Virus record (IMG/VR): IMGVR_UViG_3300025889_000774
Coordinates: 1 to 27,326 of that record
Length of the DNA stretch: 27,326 nt
Reading direction: 5' to 3' (one strand)
Origin: a virus
Shown here: positions 5,854-18,005 of the stretch, in pieces
How the letters are laid out: each line of letters starts with the position of its first letter
Numbering within the stretch: position 1 is the stretch's first letter
The notes under the pieces: model-generated
What the model was told of the DNA's origin: nothing
Databases searched by the model: none
The model's input: only the letters and a program-made list of their open reading frames with translations
Program-made: the position numbers and the translations under genes

Positions 5854-6065
5854 GCTTCCTCCTTCCACCATGCCCCAACGTAGCCCCGCAGTGCTCGCAG
5901 TGGGCAACCTTTTGTGCGTGGATTGTGCGGTAAAACCCATAGAGTTCCTGACCTGTTCACGATTTGTGCTTTGACCCTTACAGGTGGTATCCCGTAGCTG
6001 AAGCTGATGGTGTCACCTGCATAGACCCATTCGCCCTCGTCATCCGTGTATCGTGGTTTACTCAT
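5850..6065 (-). CDS. Hypothetical small beta-rich protein
   Basis: A 71-aa protein starting MSKPRYTDDEGEWVYAGDTISF. The alternating pattern (DTISFSYGIPPVRVKAQIV, TLWVLP) suggests a small beta barrel, followed by a Trp-rich end. I do not recognise the family. Its ATG shares an ATGA with the end of the Lar-like gene and its stop shares another with the next gene, which supports expression as part of this cluster. Confidence 0.7.
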   Translation of the reverse strand: MSKPRYTDDEGEWVYAGDTISFSYGIPPVRVKAQIVNRSGTLWVLPHNPRTKGCPLRALRGYVGAWWKEEA

Positions 6066-6412
6066 TCTCCAATCTCCTTTCTGAGTTTGTCGGCGTACCC
6101 ATAAATAGCATGGATTGCTTTAGGGAATTCTTCTGACTCGCTTTGTGAGTGCTTAAGCCAGTCCACTAGCCTAATTAGCTCCACCACCTCAGAGCGGCGT
6201 GGGATGGAGTTCCATTTGTGGACGTGCGAGTCTGCAGTGAACAACCACGAACCGCAACATAAGCAAAAGATGCTGCCGTGTCCTTTGTCTATTCTGCCGG
6301 AACCACAAAATGGGCATGGCTTCAGCTTCGTCTGGTAAAACTCCATTGGCAGGTCGCACGATGGCGGTCGGTTGTTTGTCATTTTTACATGTTCTTTTTT
6401 TGAGTTTGTCAT
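6062..6412 (-). CDS. Lar-like zinc-ribbon protein (restriction-alleviation family)
   Basis: A 116-aa protein with LKPCPFCGS (about residues 30-38), then IFCLCCGS and a KWNSIPRR segment. This CPFCG...C-x2-C...WN-R layout is that of the Lar/restriction-alleviation family of phage and prophage proteins. In the Rac prophage, Lar reduces type I restriction. Here only the zinc-ribbon core is recognised, so an anti-restriction role is possible rather than shown. The C-terminal 45 residues are helical and not typical of minimal Lar proteins. The ATG at 6412 has GAGAAG upstream and follows the first tRNA-like element; an ATG at 6382 is also possible. Confidence 0.65.
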   Translation of the reverse strand: MTNSKKEHVKMTNNRPPSCDLPMEFYQTKLKPCPFCGSGRIDKGHGSIFCLCCGSWLFTADSHVHKWNSIPRRSEVVELIRLVDWLKHSQSESEEFPKAIHAIYGYADKLRKEIGE

Positions 6413-6430
6413 AATCTTCTCGTTCTAAAT

Positions 6431-6499
6431 TGGACGGGCAGCCAGTTTAAACTGGAATTCAGGGAGCGACCCTGCGTGCTGTATTTACACCACTGCCCG
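6431..6499 (-). ncRNA. tRNA-like structured intercistronic element 1
   Basis: On the minus strand a 7-bp stem (CGGGCAG 6499-6493 with CTGCCCG 6441-6435) encloses three hairpins: GTGT/GCAC with a U-G pair, CAGGG/CCCTG, and CCAGT-TTAA-ACTGG. TG follows the first stem strand and T-CCA follows the second, as at the ends of a tRNA. It is only 65 nt plus CCA, and it lacks the D-loop GG, a 7-nt anticodon loop and a T-loop TTCRA, so it is not a normal tRNA. It lies between the 59-aa gene's stop and the Lar-like RBS. It is related to element 2 at 6703-6775. Confidence 0.45.
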
Positions 6500-6504
6500 A
6501 AATG

Positions 6505-6684
6505 TTATGCCAAATAAGACTCCCCTCTCTCTTTGTATTCCCCTCCACAATGGCAATCGCCTCCCTCATTAATCCCGGGATAGTCTTCACGTCTGTTCCA
6601 GCATTGGTTGCACTTCCATACTATCCGCAAATCTGCTTCTTGAGCCTCTTGTGAGTATCGGTAATTATCTTCGTAATAATTCAT
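6505..6684 (-). CDS. 59-aa zinc-ribbon protein bracketed by tRNA-like elements
   Basis: A small protein starting MNYYEDNYRYSQEA, with CNQCWNRR (about residues 29-36) and CHCGGEY (about 48-54). The two Cys pairs indicate a zinc ribbon. AGAAAGAAG stands about 5 bases ahead of the ATG at 6684, so translation is well supported. Unlike its neighbours it is not joined by ATGA overlaps: a structured element separates it from the gene on each side, as if it had been inserted as a unit. Function is unknown. Confidence 0.75.
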   Translation of the reverse strand: MNYYEDNYRYSQEAQEADLRIVWKCNQCWNRREDYPGINEGGDCHCGGEYKERGESYLA

Positions 6685-6702
6685 GTTTCTTCTTTCTAAA
6701 TT

Positions 6703-6775
6703 TGGTGGCCAGTCCGGTTTCTCACCGGAACCGCTGAGCCGGGTTCTCCTAGCCTCTGCGCGGCGTTTGCTGGCC
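6703..6775 (-). ncRNA. tRNA-like structured intercistronic element 2
   Basis: On the minus strand GGCCAG (6775-6770) pairs with CTGGCC (6712-6707), followed by A-CCA. Inside are GCC/GGC, AACC/GGTT and CCGGT-GAGAA-ACCGG hairpins, giving a cloverleaf of 73 nt including CCA. The last hairpin corresponds to CCAGT/ACTGG in element 1, with an A-T to G-C pair exchange, and both elements continue into AATTTAGAA before a Shine-Dalgarno. It lacks tRNA loop consensus bases. It fills the space between the 6781 stop and the 59-aa gene. Confidence 0.45.
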
Positions 6776-6780
6776 GTTAA

Positions 6781-7092
6781 TCATTCCACCACCTCCTTGC
6801 AGACTCGGACCTTGCGGCAGGTGTAGCCAGCAGCCAAATACTGACTCCACGGTTCGGGTGGATTGTTGGATGGAATTGACTTTCTGAATAATGTTATTGC
6901 CTCATCCTGTGTCCGCCCAACCATCTCAATCTTGCTGTGACAGGGGTCCCAAATCTGCCATTGTTCGCGCCCCTCATCGTAAGCCTTGGCCTTTTCTCGG
7001 AGGGTGGCGAGTTCTTTAACAACCTCACGAAGTTCATCCCTCAGCTCATGCTCTGACATCATATCAATTTGGTCTGGTTCTGGCCTACTCAT
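6781..7092 (-). CDS. Hypothetical protein sharing a C-terminal domain with the next gene
   Basis: A 103-aa protein. The first 40 residues form an acidic helix (EHELRDELREVVKELATLREKAKAYDEG). The rest repeats the pattern of the upstream neighbour: KAK-x2-DEG-x-E, a D-containing strand, VGRT, and AAGYTC near the end. This marks a shared domain duplicated between adjacent genes. Its ATG overlaps the upstream stop (ATGA). No catalytic residues are evident and the function is unknown. Confidence 0.7.
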   Translation of the reverse strand: MSRPEPDQIDMMSEHELRDELREVVKELATLREKAKAYDEGREQWQIWDPCHSKIEMVGRTQDEAITLFRKSIPSNNPPEPWSQYLAAGYTCRKVRVCKEVVE

Positions 7093-7496
7093 CGCTTTTC
7101 CTCTTTGATTATCGTTGCGAGTTCACAGGTGTAGCCTTCCTCTGCAAGCTCTTGCCAAGTTCTGCCAACAAGTTTGGCGTAGTCCCTAACATCTCCTAGA
7201 TGTCTAACTCGACCAAACTTGTCAAATACCATGAAAGCCTCTTGCCCCTCATCCACCATCTTCGCCTTGGCTTGCAACTTCACCAGCTCCTCTGCGGTCG
7301 GGATTGGGAGCCATTTGCCTTGCAGGTCTTTTATTGGCAACATTCTCATTTCCTTACCAGAATAACACGATAGATGAACAACATCAGGATTCCGGCTGTA
7401 GATGTGAAGCTCAACCGTTACTAATTGAAACTCACCCCCGTCTGACTCGCGCCAGTAATATGGTCCCGGCTTTGCTGGTAGTTGATTAGCCTCCAT
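7089..7496 (-). CDS. Hypothetical protein, LPAKPGPYYW start plus shared C-terminal domain
   Basis: A 135-aa protein. The N-terminal part (QLPAKPGPYYWRESDGGEFQ, then beta strands) resembles a small phage domain that I know only from hypothetical proteins. The C-terminal part (KAKMVDEGQEAF, LVGRT, EEGYTC) is shared with the next gene. AAAGGAGAAG precedes the ATG at 7496, which overlaps the end of the beta-helix gene by 11 bases, so an upstream ATG at 7598 is unlikely. Function is unknown. Confidence 0.7.
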   Translation of the reverse strand: MEANQLPAKPGPYYWRESDGGEFQLVTVELHIYSRNPDVVHLSCYSGKEMRMLPIKDLQGKWLPIPTAEELVKLQAKAKMVDEGQEAFMVFDKFGRVRHLGDVRDYAKLVGRTWQELAEEGYTCELATIIKEEKR

Positions 7497-8724
7497 ACAA
7501 AACTTCTCCTTTCTGGTGGGTTCCCATTGTGCGAGGGGCGGTTGTGTAGGATGTCGGGAAAAGTTCCTTCTCAGCCCCGACAACATGACAGAACTCATGG
7601 TCCTTATACTGGTTCAATGTAGCCCCACAAACGTGTTCCATCCGTAGTGGCACTCGCCCATCATGGGTGTTGGACTTGTGGGCCTGCACCTGCACGTATC
7701 GGTTGTTCCCACCATGCAGGTATGGTCCCTGAAGCCATCCATACAGGTTCAGGCCACGCATGTGGATATTGTTTCCTGAAGCAAAGATTGCTGCTTGGGG
7801 AGTGATGGAATTGGTTGGACCCTCCATCTGAAGGTCGATGAACTTAGGGTCTGCCAGATACACGTTTGCCATGGGTGCCTGTCGGATAATGCTCGTCCTG
7901 ATGGGTGGCCCGTGCTTGATGCCAACTTGGGCACCTTGGTGCTGCTGGATGTTGCAGTCCCGAATCCAAAGCCTGTCTTGGTTGTCTGCCAAATATATGG
8001 GCAGGGTTCCATTGTGTGCAACAATCAGGCAGTTCTCGATGGACTGCTCGAAGGGCCGGACTGTGAACTGTTCGTCCACATATGTTGTCGGCTCCACATA
8101 CAGGCCGATTGGTGCATCCGTCTTGAACCCGTATGGGATGCCTGATGAGTTGGTCCAGTTGTCATGCAGTGTTGGTCCGATGTCGCAATGAAACCTTAGG
8201 GTGCTTCCCCATCTCGTAGGTGACCATAGCCGGAAACGGCCTGGAAGCCTCTTGGTGGACCGGAAATCGTATTCTGGTGCATTGGCAACTATGGTGATGA
8301 CAGGCATGCCCACAGTGCCATACCAGCCCTTTCCGGAGGGACTGTCACCCTGCTTGTTTTGCCAGTATGCCTCTGCGTCCAGGTTATATGGACGCTGGAT
8401 GGCTTGACCCTCCTTGATGATTTTGTCCCAGCTTTCATCAGGGTTTCTCGGGTCCAGCTCGTAGTGATATTTCTGGGAAGGCTGGGAGTCAAGTGCAGTA
8501 GCGGCAAGGTCTACTTGCAGTTTGTCAACAAGGCTCCGGATTTCTTTGGCAAAGTCCTGTTGCTGCACTTTGTTGGCGAAAACTTTGCCTTCTAGCTCTT
8601 CGCACTTTCGACGCAACACATCCGCGACCTGGATGGTTGAGTTGACTTTGGTTTCCAGAGTGTTTATCTCTGGGTTGTTTTTGAGGGTGGAGACCACCTC
8701 TTCCAGTAGTTCGATTAATTGCAT
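7486..8724 (-). CDS. Right-handed beta-helix-like protein with N-terminal coiled coil
   Basis: A 412-aa protein. Residues 1-80 form heptad-patterned helices (LIELLEEVVSTLK, VADVLRRKCEELEGKV), suggesting a trimeric coiled coil. From about 170 to 390 it shows irregular rungs of short hydrophobic strands ending in Asn or Gly (CLIVAHNGTLPIYLADN, LWIRDCNIQQHQG, IHMRGLNLYG), as in parallel beta-helix tailspikes and polysaccharide lyases. No active-site pair can be picked out. A fibre, spike or glycan-binding role is inferred. Its location within DNA-metabolism genes is unusual. The start at 8724 has AAAGGA upstream and overlaps the nuclease gene by 10 bases. Confidence 0.65.
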   Translation of the reverse strand: MQLIELLEEVVSTLKNNPEINTLETKVNSTIQVADVLRRKCEELEGKVFANKVQQQDFAKEIRSLVDKLQVDLAATALDSQPSQKYHYELDPRNPDESWDKIIKEGQAIQRPYNLDAEAYWQNKQGDSPSGKGWYGTVGMPVITIVANAPEYDFRSTKRLPGRFRLWSPTRWGSTLRFHCDIGPTLHDNWTNSSGIPYGFKTDAPIGLYVEPTTYVDEQFTVRPFEQSIENCLIVAHNGTLPIYLADNQDRLWIRDCNIQQHQGAQVGIKHGPPIRTSIIRQAPMANVYLADPKFIDLQMEGPTNSITPQAAIFASGNNIHMRGLNLYGWLQGPYLHGGNNRYVQVQAHKSNTHDGRVPLRMEHVCGATLNQYKDHEFCHVVGAEKELFPTSYTTAPRTMGTHQKGEVLYGG

Positions 8725-11182: not shown

Positions 11183-11726
11183 GCAAACCCCCTTCCCGTT
11201 CAATCTGGGTTGCTCTTGGCAATTTGCGGTTCATGTTCCTTTTTCCTTCAATCATGGAAGAATAAATCAGAGAGGATATATCCAATCCCTTCCCTTCTGT
11301 ACCAGTACTGGTACAGGTACTGCCCTGTACTGGTAATTGGTTTATTGTATTGATTTGTTCTCTTGGTATATTAGTGCAGTCATCTGACTGTTCCTTGATA
11401 CGGTCATTTGACCGTTCCTTGATACAGTCATTTGACTGTTTCTCAGATTTGAGAATATCCATATGGTTTCCTGTATTGGTTATTTCGAGGCATCGTTTTC
11501 TGTTAATCCATGACTGCTTCAACCACCCTGCCTCGGTCAGTTCTTGGATGGTTCTGCGGTATGTTTTCTCTCCCATCTTGAGCTTAGTCCAGATGGATTT
11601 CTTGGATTCAAAGCATTTGCCACGGCATGCCACATACGTCATAATGGCAAGCTGGTGATGGTTGAACCCAGACTTAATCATCCATGATGGGATGTACGGG
11701 GTGTTTGACCTAGCTTTGGCTATCAT
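11169..11726 (-). CDS. Helix-turn-helix replication initiator candidate (contains iterons)
   Basis: A 185-aa protein. Residues about 1-90 look like a winged helix-turn-helix: NTPYIPSWMIKSGFNHHQLAIMTYVACRG, then KKSIWTKLKMGEKTYRRTIQELTEAGWL. The second half is polar and low in complexity and includes three repeats of about 8 residues (SND-C/R-IKE) encoded by the 24-bp iterons. It ends with a basic tail. The ATG at 11726 overlaps the upstream stop (ATGA). Position directly before the helicase, the HTH and internal iterons resemble lambda O or other initiators that carry their own origin. The role is inferred from this context. Confidence 0.68.
   Translation of the reverse strand: MIAKARSNTPYIPSWMIKSGFNHHQLAIMTYVACRGKCFESKKSIWTKLKMGEKTYRRTIQELTEAGWLKQSWINRKRCLEITNTGNHMDILKSEKQSNDCIKERSNDRIKEQSDDCTNIPREQINTINQLPVQGSTCTSTGTEGKGLDISSLIYSSMIEGKRNMNRKLPRATQIEREGGLHVRL
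11297..11316. repeat. 20-bp perfect palindrome beside iterons
   Basis: CTGTACCAGTACTGGTACAG is a perfect 20-bp dyad within the initiator gene. A partial copy, GTACTGGTA, recurs at 11327-11335, and GGATATATCC (11274-11283), another perfect dyad, lies on the other side. These are candidate initiator or host-factor sites at the origin. Confidence 0.7.
11377..11448. repeat. Three 24-bp iteron-like direct repeats, candidate replication origin
   Basis: Three direct copies with a 24-bp period start at 11377, 11401 and 11425. Each begins with a dyad: CAGTCATCTGACTG, CGGTCATTTGACCG, CAGTCATTTGACTG. In the middle copy both arms change together (A to G in the left arm, T to C in the right), which keeps the symmetry. 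An AT-rich stretch (about 11336-11376) and the 20-bp palindrome follow on the left. Iterons with dyads, an AT-rich stretch, and a position inside the initiator gene next to the helicase are the hallmarks of a lambda-type origin. Confidence 0.65.
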
Positions 11727-14765: not shown

Positions 14766-14959
14766 GGTCGGCTCATCTTGTAGAGTTTACCCAGTCGGAT
14801 TTGGTCCCGCTGGGAGAGGTTATTTGGGTAGCTCATCCACCCACGTTTAATGCATTTCTCCACCGTCATCAGGAATGCTTCCGTGACAGTTGTTCTTGGA
14901 GGGAACATTCTGCGAATGTCTTCCCATGGCGTTGTTTGTTTGCTTTTTGTCGCTGACAT
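14762..14959 (-). CDS. Small basic protein, first gene of the minus-strand early block
   Basis: A 65-aa basic protein (MSATKSKQTTPWEDIRRMF). Two helices, VTEAFLMTVEKCIKRGW and SQRDQIRLGKLY, resemble a helical nucleic-acid-binding domain, but I do not recognise a family. AGGTG lies about 5 bases upstream of the ATG. The space to the divergent plus-strand cassette is about 120 bp and should hold the minus-strand promoter; TTGCAA and TTGAAA elements are present, without a clear -10. Confidence 0.65.
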   Translation of the reverse strand: MSATKSKQTTPWEDIRRMFPPRTTVTEAFLMTVEKCIKRGWMSYPNNLSQRDQIRLGKLYKMSRP

Positions 14960-15045
14960 GCAACACCTATCCCATGCATTGGTTCAGCTTGCAAGATGTT
15001 TTTTCAACTTTTTTTCTGGGACCATCGGCAGACATCGCAAATGCC

Positions 15046-15074
15046 TTGTATTTATTGGCGATAGTTGGTATATT
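15046..15074 (+). promoter_or_regulatory. Extended -10 sigma70-like promoter of the plus-strand cassette
   Basis: TTGTAT (15046-15051), a 17-bp spacer and TATATT (15069-15074), with TGG directly ahead of the -10 (an extended -10). TATATT matches the consensus at five of six positions. Transcription would begin at about 15081-15082, which coincides with the first plausible ATG of the methyltransferase at 15082. Confidence 0.5.
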
Positions 15075-15081
15075 CCTTCGC

Positions 15082-15729
15082 ATGCTAATGTATCACACGT
15101 TTCCTGACCTCGGCATCCAGGGAGTATACGACCACGAACCGTTGGTTAGCTATTATGCCATTCCTACCTTGAAAGGTCTGTCAGTGCTTGATGCAGGGTG
15201 TGCATCTGGCTATTGGTCTAAATTATTTTACGAGCAAGGCGCAGATGTTACATCGTTAGACATTAACCTTGAAGCATATAAAGAAGTTCAGAAAAAGTGT
15301 AAGATGCGAACCAAGCAGGTTCATGCTTCGGTCTATGATTACAATAACCCGAATGCGTTTGACGTGGTTTTCTGTTCCAGCCTGCTCATGCACTGTGTCT
15401 ATCCTGTCAAACTGTTAGGCCACTTACGAGACCAGCTTAAGCCCGGAGGGCTGCTTATACTGGCAACTGCCTACAACGGTGACCCTGGGAGGTCTGTTCA
15501 CATCGAGGACCACCGTGGACGGAATGCCACTGAGGTCGAAACAAGAATCGAATCTTCCAACGAGAGTCTGTGGTGGTGCGGCAAGCAGGCTCTTAAAAGC
15601 ATGGCTGGCTCAGTAGGGTTTCAGAACCCTGACATTGTTGGCGAATTTGTCTTAACAACAACTGACCATGGACGGTCCATTGGTCATCACTACTCAACTC
15701 CACATATAGTGTTACATGCAAACAAATAA
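15082..15729 (+). CDS. Class I SAM-dependent methyltransferase
   Basis: 215 aa from the ATG at 15082. Motif I is VLDAGCASG (35-43), an acidic Asp ends the next strand (VTSLDIN), and FDVVFCSSLLMHC plus LKPGGLLILAT complete a Rossmann methyltransferase. The opening (FPDLGIQGVYDHEP, before the VLDAG motif) resembles the DUF1698/CmoB-like group. The frame is open further upstream, but that part would run into the minus-strand gene at 14762-14959. No Shine-Dalgarno is visible, so translation may be leaderless. It overlaps the radical SAM gene by 14 bases. The substrate is unknown. Confidence 0.82.
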   Translation: MLMYHTFPDLGIQGVYDHEPLVSYYAIPTLKGLSVLDAGCASGYWSKLFYEQGADVTSLDINLEAYKEVQKKCKMRTKQVHASVYDYNNPNAFDVVFCSSLLMHCVYPVKLLGHLRDQLKPGGLLILATAYNGDPGRSVHIEDHRGRNATEVETRIESSNESLWWCGKQALKSMAGSVGFQNPDIVGEFVLTTTDHGRSIGHHYSTPHIVLHANK

Positions 15730-16648
15730 AGAGGGACTCTACTGCTCAGGAGGCAAGAACTGGATTAGCATTGGAAGCGAAGGTGACGTTTACCCGTGCA
15801 ACAGTCTTGTCTATAACAAGGACCATTTACTCGGCAACATGCTGGACGGCCCAGTCAAGCTGTCAAAGGATTTCATGCGCTGCCCGTGGCAGGGTTGCCA
15901 ACAGATATGCGATAGGCACTGGTCATCAAAAGCAGTATTCAAGGATGGACTGGTCACGGACCAGGAAAACGTCATTAACCCAAGCGTCTTTGAAGGCAAG
16001 AAAAACCCAGCAGCAATGATTTGGGCTGCTTCCTGGGTCTGTAACTACAACTGCCAGTATTGCGGGCTCCCCAAGGACACAAGGAAAACAACTGCTGACC
16101 AATGGGTAGAAGCCTTTAAGCAGTTTCTGGACTTGAATGAGTTTGACGGAGGCTTGTTCAACACCAATGGTGGCGAACCGTTGTTCTATGACGGGATTGA
16201 GAAGGTGTTTGCATTTATGGCTGACAGGGGTTTTGCCATAAGCCTGACGACAAACCTGTCAAGTGATATTTGGAACAAGGTGGTGCATGCTGCACCGCCA
16301 GAGAAGTGGGGGATTATTAATTGCTCCCTGCATGTCACTGAACCCAAGTTCAACTGGGAGATATTTGCGGGCCGCATCCTTGCTCTGAAGGCAATGGGGT
16401 ATCCTGTGTCGGTCAACTATGTGGGGCACCCGTCCCAGGTCATGCTGGCTCCAGAGTATGCGGAGTATTTTACAAAGCGTGGCATTGGGTTCTGCTTAAT
16501 CCCAATGATTGGCCAATATGGGAAGTTCAATTTCCCGACCATTGAGTCATACCCGCCAGCCATGCGTGATGTGCTGAAAGCACACTGCCCTGACAGTCTT
16601 AAGGACACAAACAGGTTCGATGACGGGAAACGGGTTGAAGCCAAGTAA
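15716..16648 (+). CDS. Radical SAM protein with N-terminal Cys cluster
   Basis: A 310-aa radical SAM enzyme. C109-x3-C113-x2-C116 binds the [4Fe-4S] cluster that cleaves SAM, and GGEP (152-155) is the SAM-binding motif. Ahead of it lie C10, GSEGDVYPCN (C28), LLGN and C56-P-W-x2-C61-x3-C65, a pattern like the SPASM auxiliary cluster domain but placed N-terminal. In known SPASM enzymes this domain follows the barrel. Related proteins occur in surface-glycan and peptide-modification clusters. Substrate is unknown. The start overlaps the methyltransferase stop, and TAATG links it to the glycosyltransferase. Confidence 0.85.
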   Translation: MQTNKEGLYCSGGKNWISIGSEGDVYPCNSLVYNKDHLLGNMLDGPVKLSKDFMRCPWQGCQQICDRHWSSKAVFKDGLVTDQENVINPSVFEGKKNPAAMIWAASWVCNYNCQYCGLPKDTRKTTADQWVEAFKQFLDLNEFDGGLFNTNGGEPLFYDGIEKVFAFMADRGFAISLTTNLSSDIWNKVVHAAPPEKWGIINCSLHVTEPKFNWEIFAGRILALKAMGYPVSVNYVGHPSQVMLAPEYAEYFTKRGIGFCLIPMIGQYGKFNFPTIESYPPAMRDVLKAHCPDSLKDTNRFDDGKRVEAK

Positions 16649-17373
16649 TGAGCATACCAAAAACAGCATACTTCGTTTACGGGGAGCACAAAACCAACCC
16701 GATGCCTGACACTGGGTTTGCCAACATGGCAGACTTTGTTCGCCTGAACAATGGCTGGCAAAGCAGGTTCATCACGCTGGATGACTTCAATCCAGAGCAT
16801 GCGGACATCTTTGAGTGGAACAAGCTTGCATGGTCGCAGGTCGCCAGGTATGAGCTGGTGTATCAGCACGGTGGGCTTTACTCGGATGTTGATATTGAGT
16901 TTTACGGACCGCTTCCTGCCATGGACGAATGTGACATGGTCATCGCTTGTGAGACGCATGGCGGGGTCAGCGATGCGTTTTTTGCAGCTACCCCAGGTCA
17001 CTCAATACTCGGTGAGTGCCTTGAAAAGTCCGTCCATTGGTGCCGCAGAAAGATGGGCATGGGTGTCAAGTCCTTCACAACAGAAGACCTGTTCAACGGA
17101 TGCGGGGTGACGTTCTTCACTAAAACAGTCAAGGCTCGCACGGGATTCAATATGTGCTATGAGCAGCAGTTGCACATGGCTCAGCAGGATTTCGGTGGCA
17201 AGTTCCATCCTGAAAAGGGTGTCGGCATTCTGCCATTTGAGGCATTGTGCAGGCACAATCGGGCCAACTGGGTTGGCTGGCACCAGTGTGTCGGGACATG
17301 GAGACCAAGAACTGAAGCAGGTGAAAAAGACATGAGGATGGAAGCATGCCTACCAGCGAATTTGAACACGTAG
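16648..17373 (+). CDS. DXD glycosyltransferase (GT32-like, capsular polysaccharide type)
   Basis: A 241-aa protein with the GT-A DXD signature: SQVARYELVYQHGGLYSDVDIEF, with GG at 75-76 and DVD at 80-82. This R-x-LY-x-GG-YsDvD pattern defines the Gly_transf_sug family, which transfers a sugar from a nucleotide-sugar to a glycan, lipid or protein. There is no transmembrane segment. The start shares a base with the upstream stop (TAATG) and the end overlaps the next gene by 28 bases. It probably acts with the flanking methyltransferases on one glycan, inferred from operon structure. Confidence 0.85.
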   Translation: MSIPKTAYFVYGEHKTNPMPDTGFANMADFVRLNNGWQSRFITLDDFNPEHADIFEWNKLAWSQVARYELVYQHGGLYSDVDIEFYGPLPAMDECDMVIACETHGGVSDAFFAATPGHSILGECLEKSVHWCRRKMGMGVKSFTTEDLFNGCGVTFFTKTVKARTGFNMCYEQQLHMAQQDFGGKFHPEKGVGILPFEALCRHNRANWVGWHQCVGTWRPRTEAGEKDMRMEACLPANLNT

Positions 17374-18005
17374 CCCAGAACTGGGACCACCTAGCCAAGA
17401 CGGAGCCATACTACGCCGTCTTGACCGACGAGGCAAACAGGCAAGGCCCGAGCGAATACTTCTGGCAGTCGGGCGATGTGGTTGCAAGTTTGATTCAACG
17501 GGAAGTTGCCTTGGCTGGTTTGTCGTTGTCCGAGCTGCATGCCTGTGAACTAGGGTCAGGTGTTGGTCGTGTTGCACAAGCCATGTATCGGCTATGCAAA
17601 TCTGTGACCGGCTTTGACGTTAGCCAAACCATGGTGGAGGTTGCTTCAAAGAACTTCCCGTATATACAGTTCAGGCATTTTGATGGCAGACTGGAGCCAT
17701 TGTCATGTGACCTGGTTTATAGTGTAATCGTTTTGCAACACAACCCACCGGAAGTCATTGGTAAGATGTTGAGAACCATGTTCTCGGCTGCACGGCATGC
17801 TGTATGGTTTCAGTTGCCACTGCCAACCGGAGAGCAGGACACCATGCCTGCTATCCCTGCCATCCCGATGTATGGTATGCCAGAGCATGCAGTTCTGGAG
17901 ATAGGCAGGCAGTCAGGCTTCGACTTTGTCGCCATCATCAATGACCATTTTGCCGTGCCAGGGATGGACAGTCGGAGGTATGTTTTTACCAGAAAAAAGA
18001 TTTAA
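17346..18005 (+). CDS. Class I SAM-dependent methyltransferase
   Basis: A 219-aa methyltransferase. Motif I is CELGSGVGR (67-75), followed by VTGFDVSQTMVEVA and CDLVYSVIVLQHNPPEV, a layout typical of Methyltransf_11/25. GGATGGAAGC precedes the ATG at 17346. It is the last gene of the plus-strand cassette and is followed by a strong intrinsic terminator. It differs clearly from the first methyltransferase, so the cassette carries two non-paralogous methyl transfer steps. The substrate is unknown; a sugar hydroxyl or a nucleotide-sugar intermediate is a reasonable inference. Confidence 0.85.
   Translation: MPTSEFEHVAQNWDHLAKTEPYYAVLTDEANRQGPSEYFWQSGDVVASLIQREVALAGLSLSELHACELGSGVGRVAQAMYRLCKSVTGFDVSQTMVEVASKNFPYIQFRHFDGRLEPLSCDLVYSVIVLQHNPPEVIGKMLRTMFSAARHAVWFQLPLPTGEQDTMPAIPAIPMYGMPEHAVLEIGRQSGFDFVAIINDHFAVPGMDSRRYVFTRKKI

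Follow-up and report, generated by a model that had tools for sequence, protein, structure and literature searches.

Why does a run of closely overlapping phage genes open into structured gaps on both sides of one small gene? The window considered here, meaning the whole stretch of DNA that was analysed, is a viral record 27,326 bases long. A survey of its gene junctions revealed a minus-strand run of small genes joined by 4-base ATGA overlaps, and this run is broken by gaps of 96 and 92 nt on either side of a 59-aa ORF (6505..6684, minus strand; CxxC...CxC). One folded element, A, fills the first gap and another, B, fills the second, which bears out the observation in an earlier, sequence-only reading that two elements bracket this ORF where the ATGA overlaps stop. 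At E 0.001, the ORF itself has no family match in Pfam or PHROGs, and a weak match to WSC (E 0.0099) falls under the cut-off. Upstream of A lies a 103-aa ORF (6781..7092, minus strand), whose C-terminus YTCRKVRVCKEV is also carried by otherwise different proteins of relatives. The 116-aa ORF downstream of B (6062..6412, minus strand) weakly resembles the restriction alleviation protein Lar (PF14354, E 1.5e-4, 22.3 bits, not reaching the Pfam cut-off of 28.6). Relatives of this ORF are present in contigs L032 and L041; a direct search for them in viral contigs gave no yield, and none of the 22 stretches returned by an alignment search of genome contigs was confirmed.

Several other features of the window bear on its setting. 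It encodes an exonuclease VIII-like protein (phrog_412); such proteins usually accompany phage annealing recombinases, and the 209-aa ORF adjoining the exonuclease VIII-like gene has no Pfam match. The DnaB-like protein is 33% identical to proteins of Akkermansia phages, among many others, and gives a host lead only. Within a replication-initiation-like gene adjoining the DnaB gene, tandem 24-nt repeats, each with a GTCAAATGAC-type inverted repeat, form the top minus-strand fold of the window by z (11340-11480, minus strand; z -8.5) and are possibly an origin of replication. An unusual cargo of four opposite-strand genes (14890-18005, plus strand), comprising two methyltransferases, a radical SAM protein and a glycosyltransferase-like protein, has the replication genes on one side and, on the other, a 1568-aa ORF that belongs to no family and has no relatives in the phages searched.

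Both elements lie on the minus strand and both are predicted to fold. The minimum-free-energy fold and an alignment of six distinct copies give element A (6707..6775) as a three-way junction. Its closing stem, P1, has 6 bp (6775-6770/6712-6707), the P2 domain consists of CCGC/GCGG plus GGCU..GGCU, and the P3 hairpin, UCCGGU-GAGAA-ACCGGA, stacks directly on P1. Immediately 5' of A stands TTAAC (6776..6780, minus strand), at whose position in L041 and L012 the TTAA provides the stop codon of the upstream gene. For element B (6435..6499), the minimum-free-energy fold and two distinct copies give a four-way, cloverleaf-like structure with the closing stem CGGGCAG/CTGCCCG (6499-6493/6441-6435), two inner hairpins and a last hairpin, CCAGT-TTAA-ACTGG; in the lowest-energy fold, the closing stem has 6 bp and the seventh pair goes to the neighbouring hairpin. 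After the closing stem, both A and B continue with CCA and then AATTTAGAA, a motif notable here for its position only, since it is not enriched in the window (6 occurrences with up to one mismatch against 4.47 expected). Thus, the two elements exist, fold and carry CCA after the closing stem as had been described, but A does not form the cloverleaf that had been ascribed to it.

The stability of these folds was compared with dinucleotide shuffles and with the rest of the genome. With some flank included, A folds at -33.1 kcal/mol (z -3.19; 1 of 200 shuffles as good) and B at -28.9 kcal/mol (z -2.77; 2 of 200). Among 1365 82-nt minus-strand windows of this genome, B ranks 12th and A 54th by z, and A ranks 11th by energy. 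The folds are therefore strong but not exceptional here, strong folds being common in this genome.

The earlier reading had also taken the last hairpins, CCAGT/ACTGG in B and CCGGT/ACCGG in A, to differ by a compensatory pair change. In the loci searched, a model of A built without its tail (model R2, 97.2 bits) misses none of the full copies of A, and it does not detect B in the window or its relatives. When the tail is included, a weak match to B appears (E 0.048), resting on the closing stem, the last hairpin and the shared leader. By these models, A and B are different structural classes, and since the hairpin comparison is then one between different structures, the change does not amount to covariation.

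A second suggestion was that the elements are degenerate tRNAs. ARAGORN called no tRNA gene in the window or in nine relative loci, Rfam 15 gave no match at gathering score in the window and six relatives, and lowering the requirement to E up to 10 over 6380-6830 produced no match either, the tRNA model included. Neither element has a seven-base T-loop with TTCRA, the last-hairpin loops being GAGAA in A and TTAA in B, and there is no D-loop GG, the D-like loop of B being AAAT. What is present is a tRNA-like stack, of 6+6 bp followed by ACCA in A and of 7+5 bp followed by TCCA in B. With ARAGORN, Rfam and inspection of the T-loop all negative, A and B were rejected as tRNAs. Separately, the other strand of L034 (14237-14416) resembles the 3' half of a tRNA gene with a terminal CCA; this stretch is not among the ARAGORN calls and may be the attachment site of a temperate phage.

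Copies were sought in IMG/VR through relatives of the 103-aa ORF and through scans for pieces of A and B. Apart from the window, six contigs turned out to carry A (L012/L033, L013, L014/L031, L015, L016 and L041/L058, the last with a divergent copy), always as one full copy per contig searched, so the check for further copies in related phages turned out positive. As L014 and L015 hold an identical copy, there are six distinct copies of A with that of the window. B was found in L014 and L015 besides the window, giving two distinct copies (the window; L014 = L015) that differ once, at an unpaired base. A scan with the 3' end of A returned nine stretches, six of them A; the other three (L038, L039 and L040) lack the 5' part of A and were dismissed as chance matches. 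Six of eight stretches from a spaced-core scan were likewise A (L042 and L043 were not), and eight of twelve from a leader scan (L049-L056) were one unrelated AT-rich sequence. In genome contigs, the exact 19-base core of A had no match, and A plus B searched by DNA against phages and plasmids gave 2 and 4 records, all at E 6, a chance level.

The relatives also reveal where the elements are missing. B is present or absent at matching junctions. L014 holds A and B in tandem, joined by AATTT, with an internally deleted A before the gene that precedes the tandem; in L013, A without B stands before the same downstream gene. L041 has a leader without A or B, nearly the same as that in the window, before its relative of the 116-aa ORF. 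L032 has no A, no B and no 59-aa ORF, and its relative of the 103-aa ORF directly overlaps that of the 116-aa ORF. The bare leader in L041 and the lack of both elements in L032 show that the module is dispensable at a given junction.

Across the alignment of the six distinct copies of A, all 132 of 132 pair cells hold standard pairs, although the consensus structure was derived from the same alignment as this count; the window's own fold has the same helices and one extra pair. Variable columns number 3 of 44 among paired positions versus 14 of 28 among unpaired ones (Fisher p = 4e-5); three of these 14 columns come from a single 3-base insertion. All three changes at paired positions keep the pair (C-G to U-G and, in L041, both G-U to G-C and U-G to U-A). 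Shuffles of the 3' letters also stay fully paired and are thus uninformative on pair keeping. No pair is changed on both sides in these six copies, and of the covariation that a larger alignment might have revealed, three one-sided, pair-keeping changes were seen and no double compensatory change. The alignment shows that the secondary structure of A is conserved.

The neighbours of A change: the genes upstream of it are of four kinds and those downstream of five. Every copy of A and B lies on the gene strand, just before a leader, and the last closing stem ends 11-22 nt from the start codon (seven A, B or A-B junctions); a single orientation holds for all element copies. Pairwise BLAST returns blocks of 82-96 nt at 84-98% identity that hold A and little else. 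Some pairs reach into matching flanks (the block that the window shares with L013 is 306 nt long, that shared with L016 327 nt), and a matching flank can be less alike than A itself (82.6% versus 97.6% for L033 and L013). Judged by these comparisons, A is a discrete block of about 83 nt with fixed orientation and position and varying neighbours.

A third structural class occupies similar places in the same phage set. Hairpin H (GGGGCGG-GRWA-CCGCCCC) has 7 bp, no CCA and a similar tail, and the phages of L033, L013/L030 and L057 have it at four distinct places between them. At three of these, a start codon follows 21-38 nt past H; at the fourth, in L033, there is no ATG nearby. Two copies of H stand around one gene in L033 (12520-12565 and 12879-12924, minus strand), and the gene after the second may start at TTG. 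Genes flanked on both sides thus occur as A-gene-B in the window, truncated A-gene-A-B in L014 and H-gene-H in L033. The small accessory proteins are themselves mosaics, sharing the C-terminal YTCRKVRVCKEV or N-terminal segments and differing in the remainder, and within-gene mosaics lie near elements at L013 5995-6477, L016 42-341, L031 5425-5847, L032 5449-5877 and 6781-7092 of the window. As a separate observation, an intergenic stretch 91 nt long, in which several strong hairpins form (-40 kcal/mol) and which has an A/T-rich leader at its end, recurs in three loci (L013 923-1013, minus strand; L030 14567-14657; within L033 15413-15810), in a gap list that was made with a rough gene caller and includes miscalls.

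An A-rich leader comes after each element of the window: ACCAAATTTAGAAAGAAGAAAC leads from A to the start codon of the 59-aa ORF (6685..6706, minus strand; anti-SD duplex -1.8 kcal/mol) and TCCAATTTAGAACGAGAAGATT from B to that of the 116-aa ORF (6413..6434, minus strand; -3.0 kcal/mol). Both elements had been said to run into AATTTAGAA and a Shine-Dalgarno sequence. The former is indeed there; the latter is not, judging by the duplex energies. Eleven leaders, one of them (L041) without an element, range from -0.1 to -4.1 kcal/mol with a median of -2.9, near the background median of -3.3 and weaker than the median of -5.5 at overlapping junctions (n=53, p 0.016). Genes with gaps have a median of -1.8 (n=47, some element leaders included). 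Since such genes generally lack a Shine-Dalgarno sequence, the elements do not stand out by its absence. An A-rich motif resembling the leader is also present at other places in these phages (L031, L058). That the fold might hold the leader in single-stranded form was tested and discarded, as the native element beat every shuffled one in only 1 of 10 contexts. On the minus strand from 6000 to 7600, searches found no match to a promoter of the sigma-70-like type and none to an intrinsic terminator (a GC-rich hairpin plus a T run).

Could gene exchange by itself account for these blocks? A would then be a recombination boundary only, a shared spacer maintained by frequent exchange, with a fold that has no function in RNA. 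Several observations point that way: the same block adjoins many genes, L014 has a gene between truncated and full A just as L033 has one between copies of H, the neighbouring small genes are mosaics, and the exonuclease VIII-like protein is encoded in the window. We still regard this reading as unlikely, if worth keeping in view, because the variation avoids paired columns and keeps pairs, for which exchange alone is insufficient, and because three unrelated folds are found in the same kind of place. A miniature mobile element, its closing stem serving as terminal inverted repeat and AATTT as target duplication, would be a different source of mobility. B has AATTT on both sides in L014 and is missing before the same gene in L013, and the L041 junction without B resembles an empty site. 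However, all copies of A and B run in gene direction just before a leader, each contig searched has a single full A, and the left flank of B in the window reads ACATTT rather than AATTT; transposition of this kind is quite improbable.

The tRNA-like geometry suggests another function. As tRNA mimics, the elements would present the 12-bp stack (6+6 in A, 7+5 in B) and the N-CCA end for recognition by RNase P, which would separate the cistrons. Both elements, and every copy of A, show this geometry, and RNase P is reported to cut phage RNAs and polycistronic mRNAs (PMC11143913). Yet the last-hairpin loops, of 5 and 4 nt, lack TTCRA, there is no D-loop GG, the ARAGORN and Rfam searches were negative, B closes with only 6 bp in its lowest-energy fold, and hairpin H, which fills the same role, is 7 bp long and lacks CCA. 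That A and B are such mimics is accordingly doubtful, and equally so is the extended version, in which these minimal mimics would draw host RNase P, a newly captured gene would gain its own mRNA, processed so as to leave the 5' end structured, and the module would travel along with that gene. Least credible is that A, with B, belongs to a small coding gene. The frame TASKHRAEARRTRLSGSGKKPDWPPISGSG... is open through five translated copies of A, with an ATG in L013 and L012, and by eye it is open in L041 too, where the 3-nt insertion preserves it. The other copies have no start codon, though, so that most copies lack one; the 14 substituted columns split 5, 5 and 4 over codon positions in a hand count, without third-position excess; and tblastn found no match among phages at E up to 10. 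The coding reading was rejected on these grounds. A mini-ORF (MINGQQ..RG) starting from the ATGA of the upstream gene was also set aside, because neither L041 and L012 nor the full A of L014 retains its start.

Fixed orientation, a place between stop codon and leader, and kept pairs together point to a function in RNA. With no terminator, no promoter match and no specificity for a gene, punctuation of the mRNA, by processing or stabilisation, remains as that function, and the same type of block beside different genes in relatives suggests portable RNA spacers at points where small genes are swapped. Our preferred reading, tentative and with a probability of roughly 0.45, takes A and B for portable structured modules between cistrons, placed at gene-exchange points; they would most likely be mRNA processing or stability elements and double as homology blocks. 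The setting would be a mosaic accessory operon in a group of uncultured phages, with each module placed between a stop codon and the next gene's leader, which is A-rich and lacks a Shine-Dalgarno sequence. Once transcribed, the fold would act as punctuation between cistrons, with cleavage nearby; the 5' end of the downstream cistron would then be structured and protected, and the 3' end of the upstream one structured. An inserted small gene could in this way form its own expression unit, replacing ATGA coupling, and the same block beside many genes could supply homology for their exchange. Phage recombinases accept short, diverged homology, according to PMC3945230.

An RNA-processing or mRNA-stability role, one of the options raised at the outset, thus gains support from the copies beside different genes, the conservation of A and the recurrence of flanked genes, the processing step itself being inferred. 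If the preferred reading is correct, this phage group bounds small accessory genes with ready-made structured RNA modules of several classes, and a gene can enter an overlapping operon and remain expressed. The modules would mark gene-exchange sites and so help to locate recently captured genes, for example anti-restriction candidates. Among the titles and abstract openings of the literature searched, there is no description of such modules.

Known systems offer partial parallels. The promoter-early stem-loop (PeSL) cassettes of T4-type phages are structured intergenic repeats around variable small genes, thought to aid cassette exchange. Copies of the elements likewise surround variable small genes in the window, L014 and L033, but A and B have no adjoining promoter match, form multibranched folds and are followed by an A-rich leader. 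The earlier suggestion of a T4-like stem-loop boundary is therefore supported by the copies beside different genes and the genes flanked on two sides, whereas the lack of a sigma-70-like promoter from 6000 to 7600 on the minus strand means that these are not promoter-stem-loops in the T4 sense. In phage T7, RNase III processing sites lie between early genes. These too are structured intercistronic RNAs on the operon strand, close before the next gene; unlike a usual RNase III site, the stems here are short (2-7 bp per helix). Boundary sequences are a concept from lambdoid phages. A short conserved sequence where genes are exchanged, offering homology for general recombination, is common to both cases, whereas the block described here has conserved secondary structure, and such blocks fall into no fewer than three structural classes. 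PMC3029335 mentions boundary sequences that are short and conserved. Among tRNA-like substrates of RNase P, PMC11143913 lists phage M3 RNA, C4 RNA and T4 gene 32 mRNA. With tRNA and tRNA-like substrates, A and B share the 12-bp stacked helix and the N-CCA end; they differ from them in having no T-loop or D-loop signature and, for A, in being a three-way junction.
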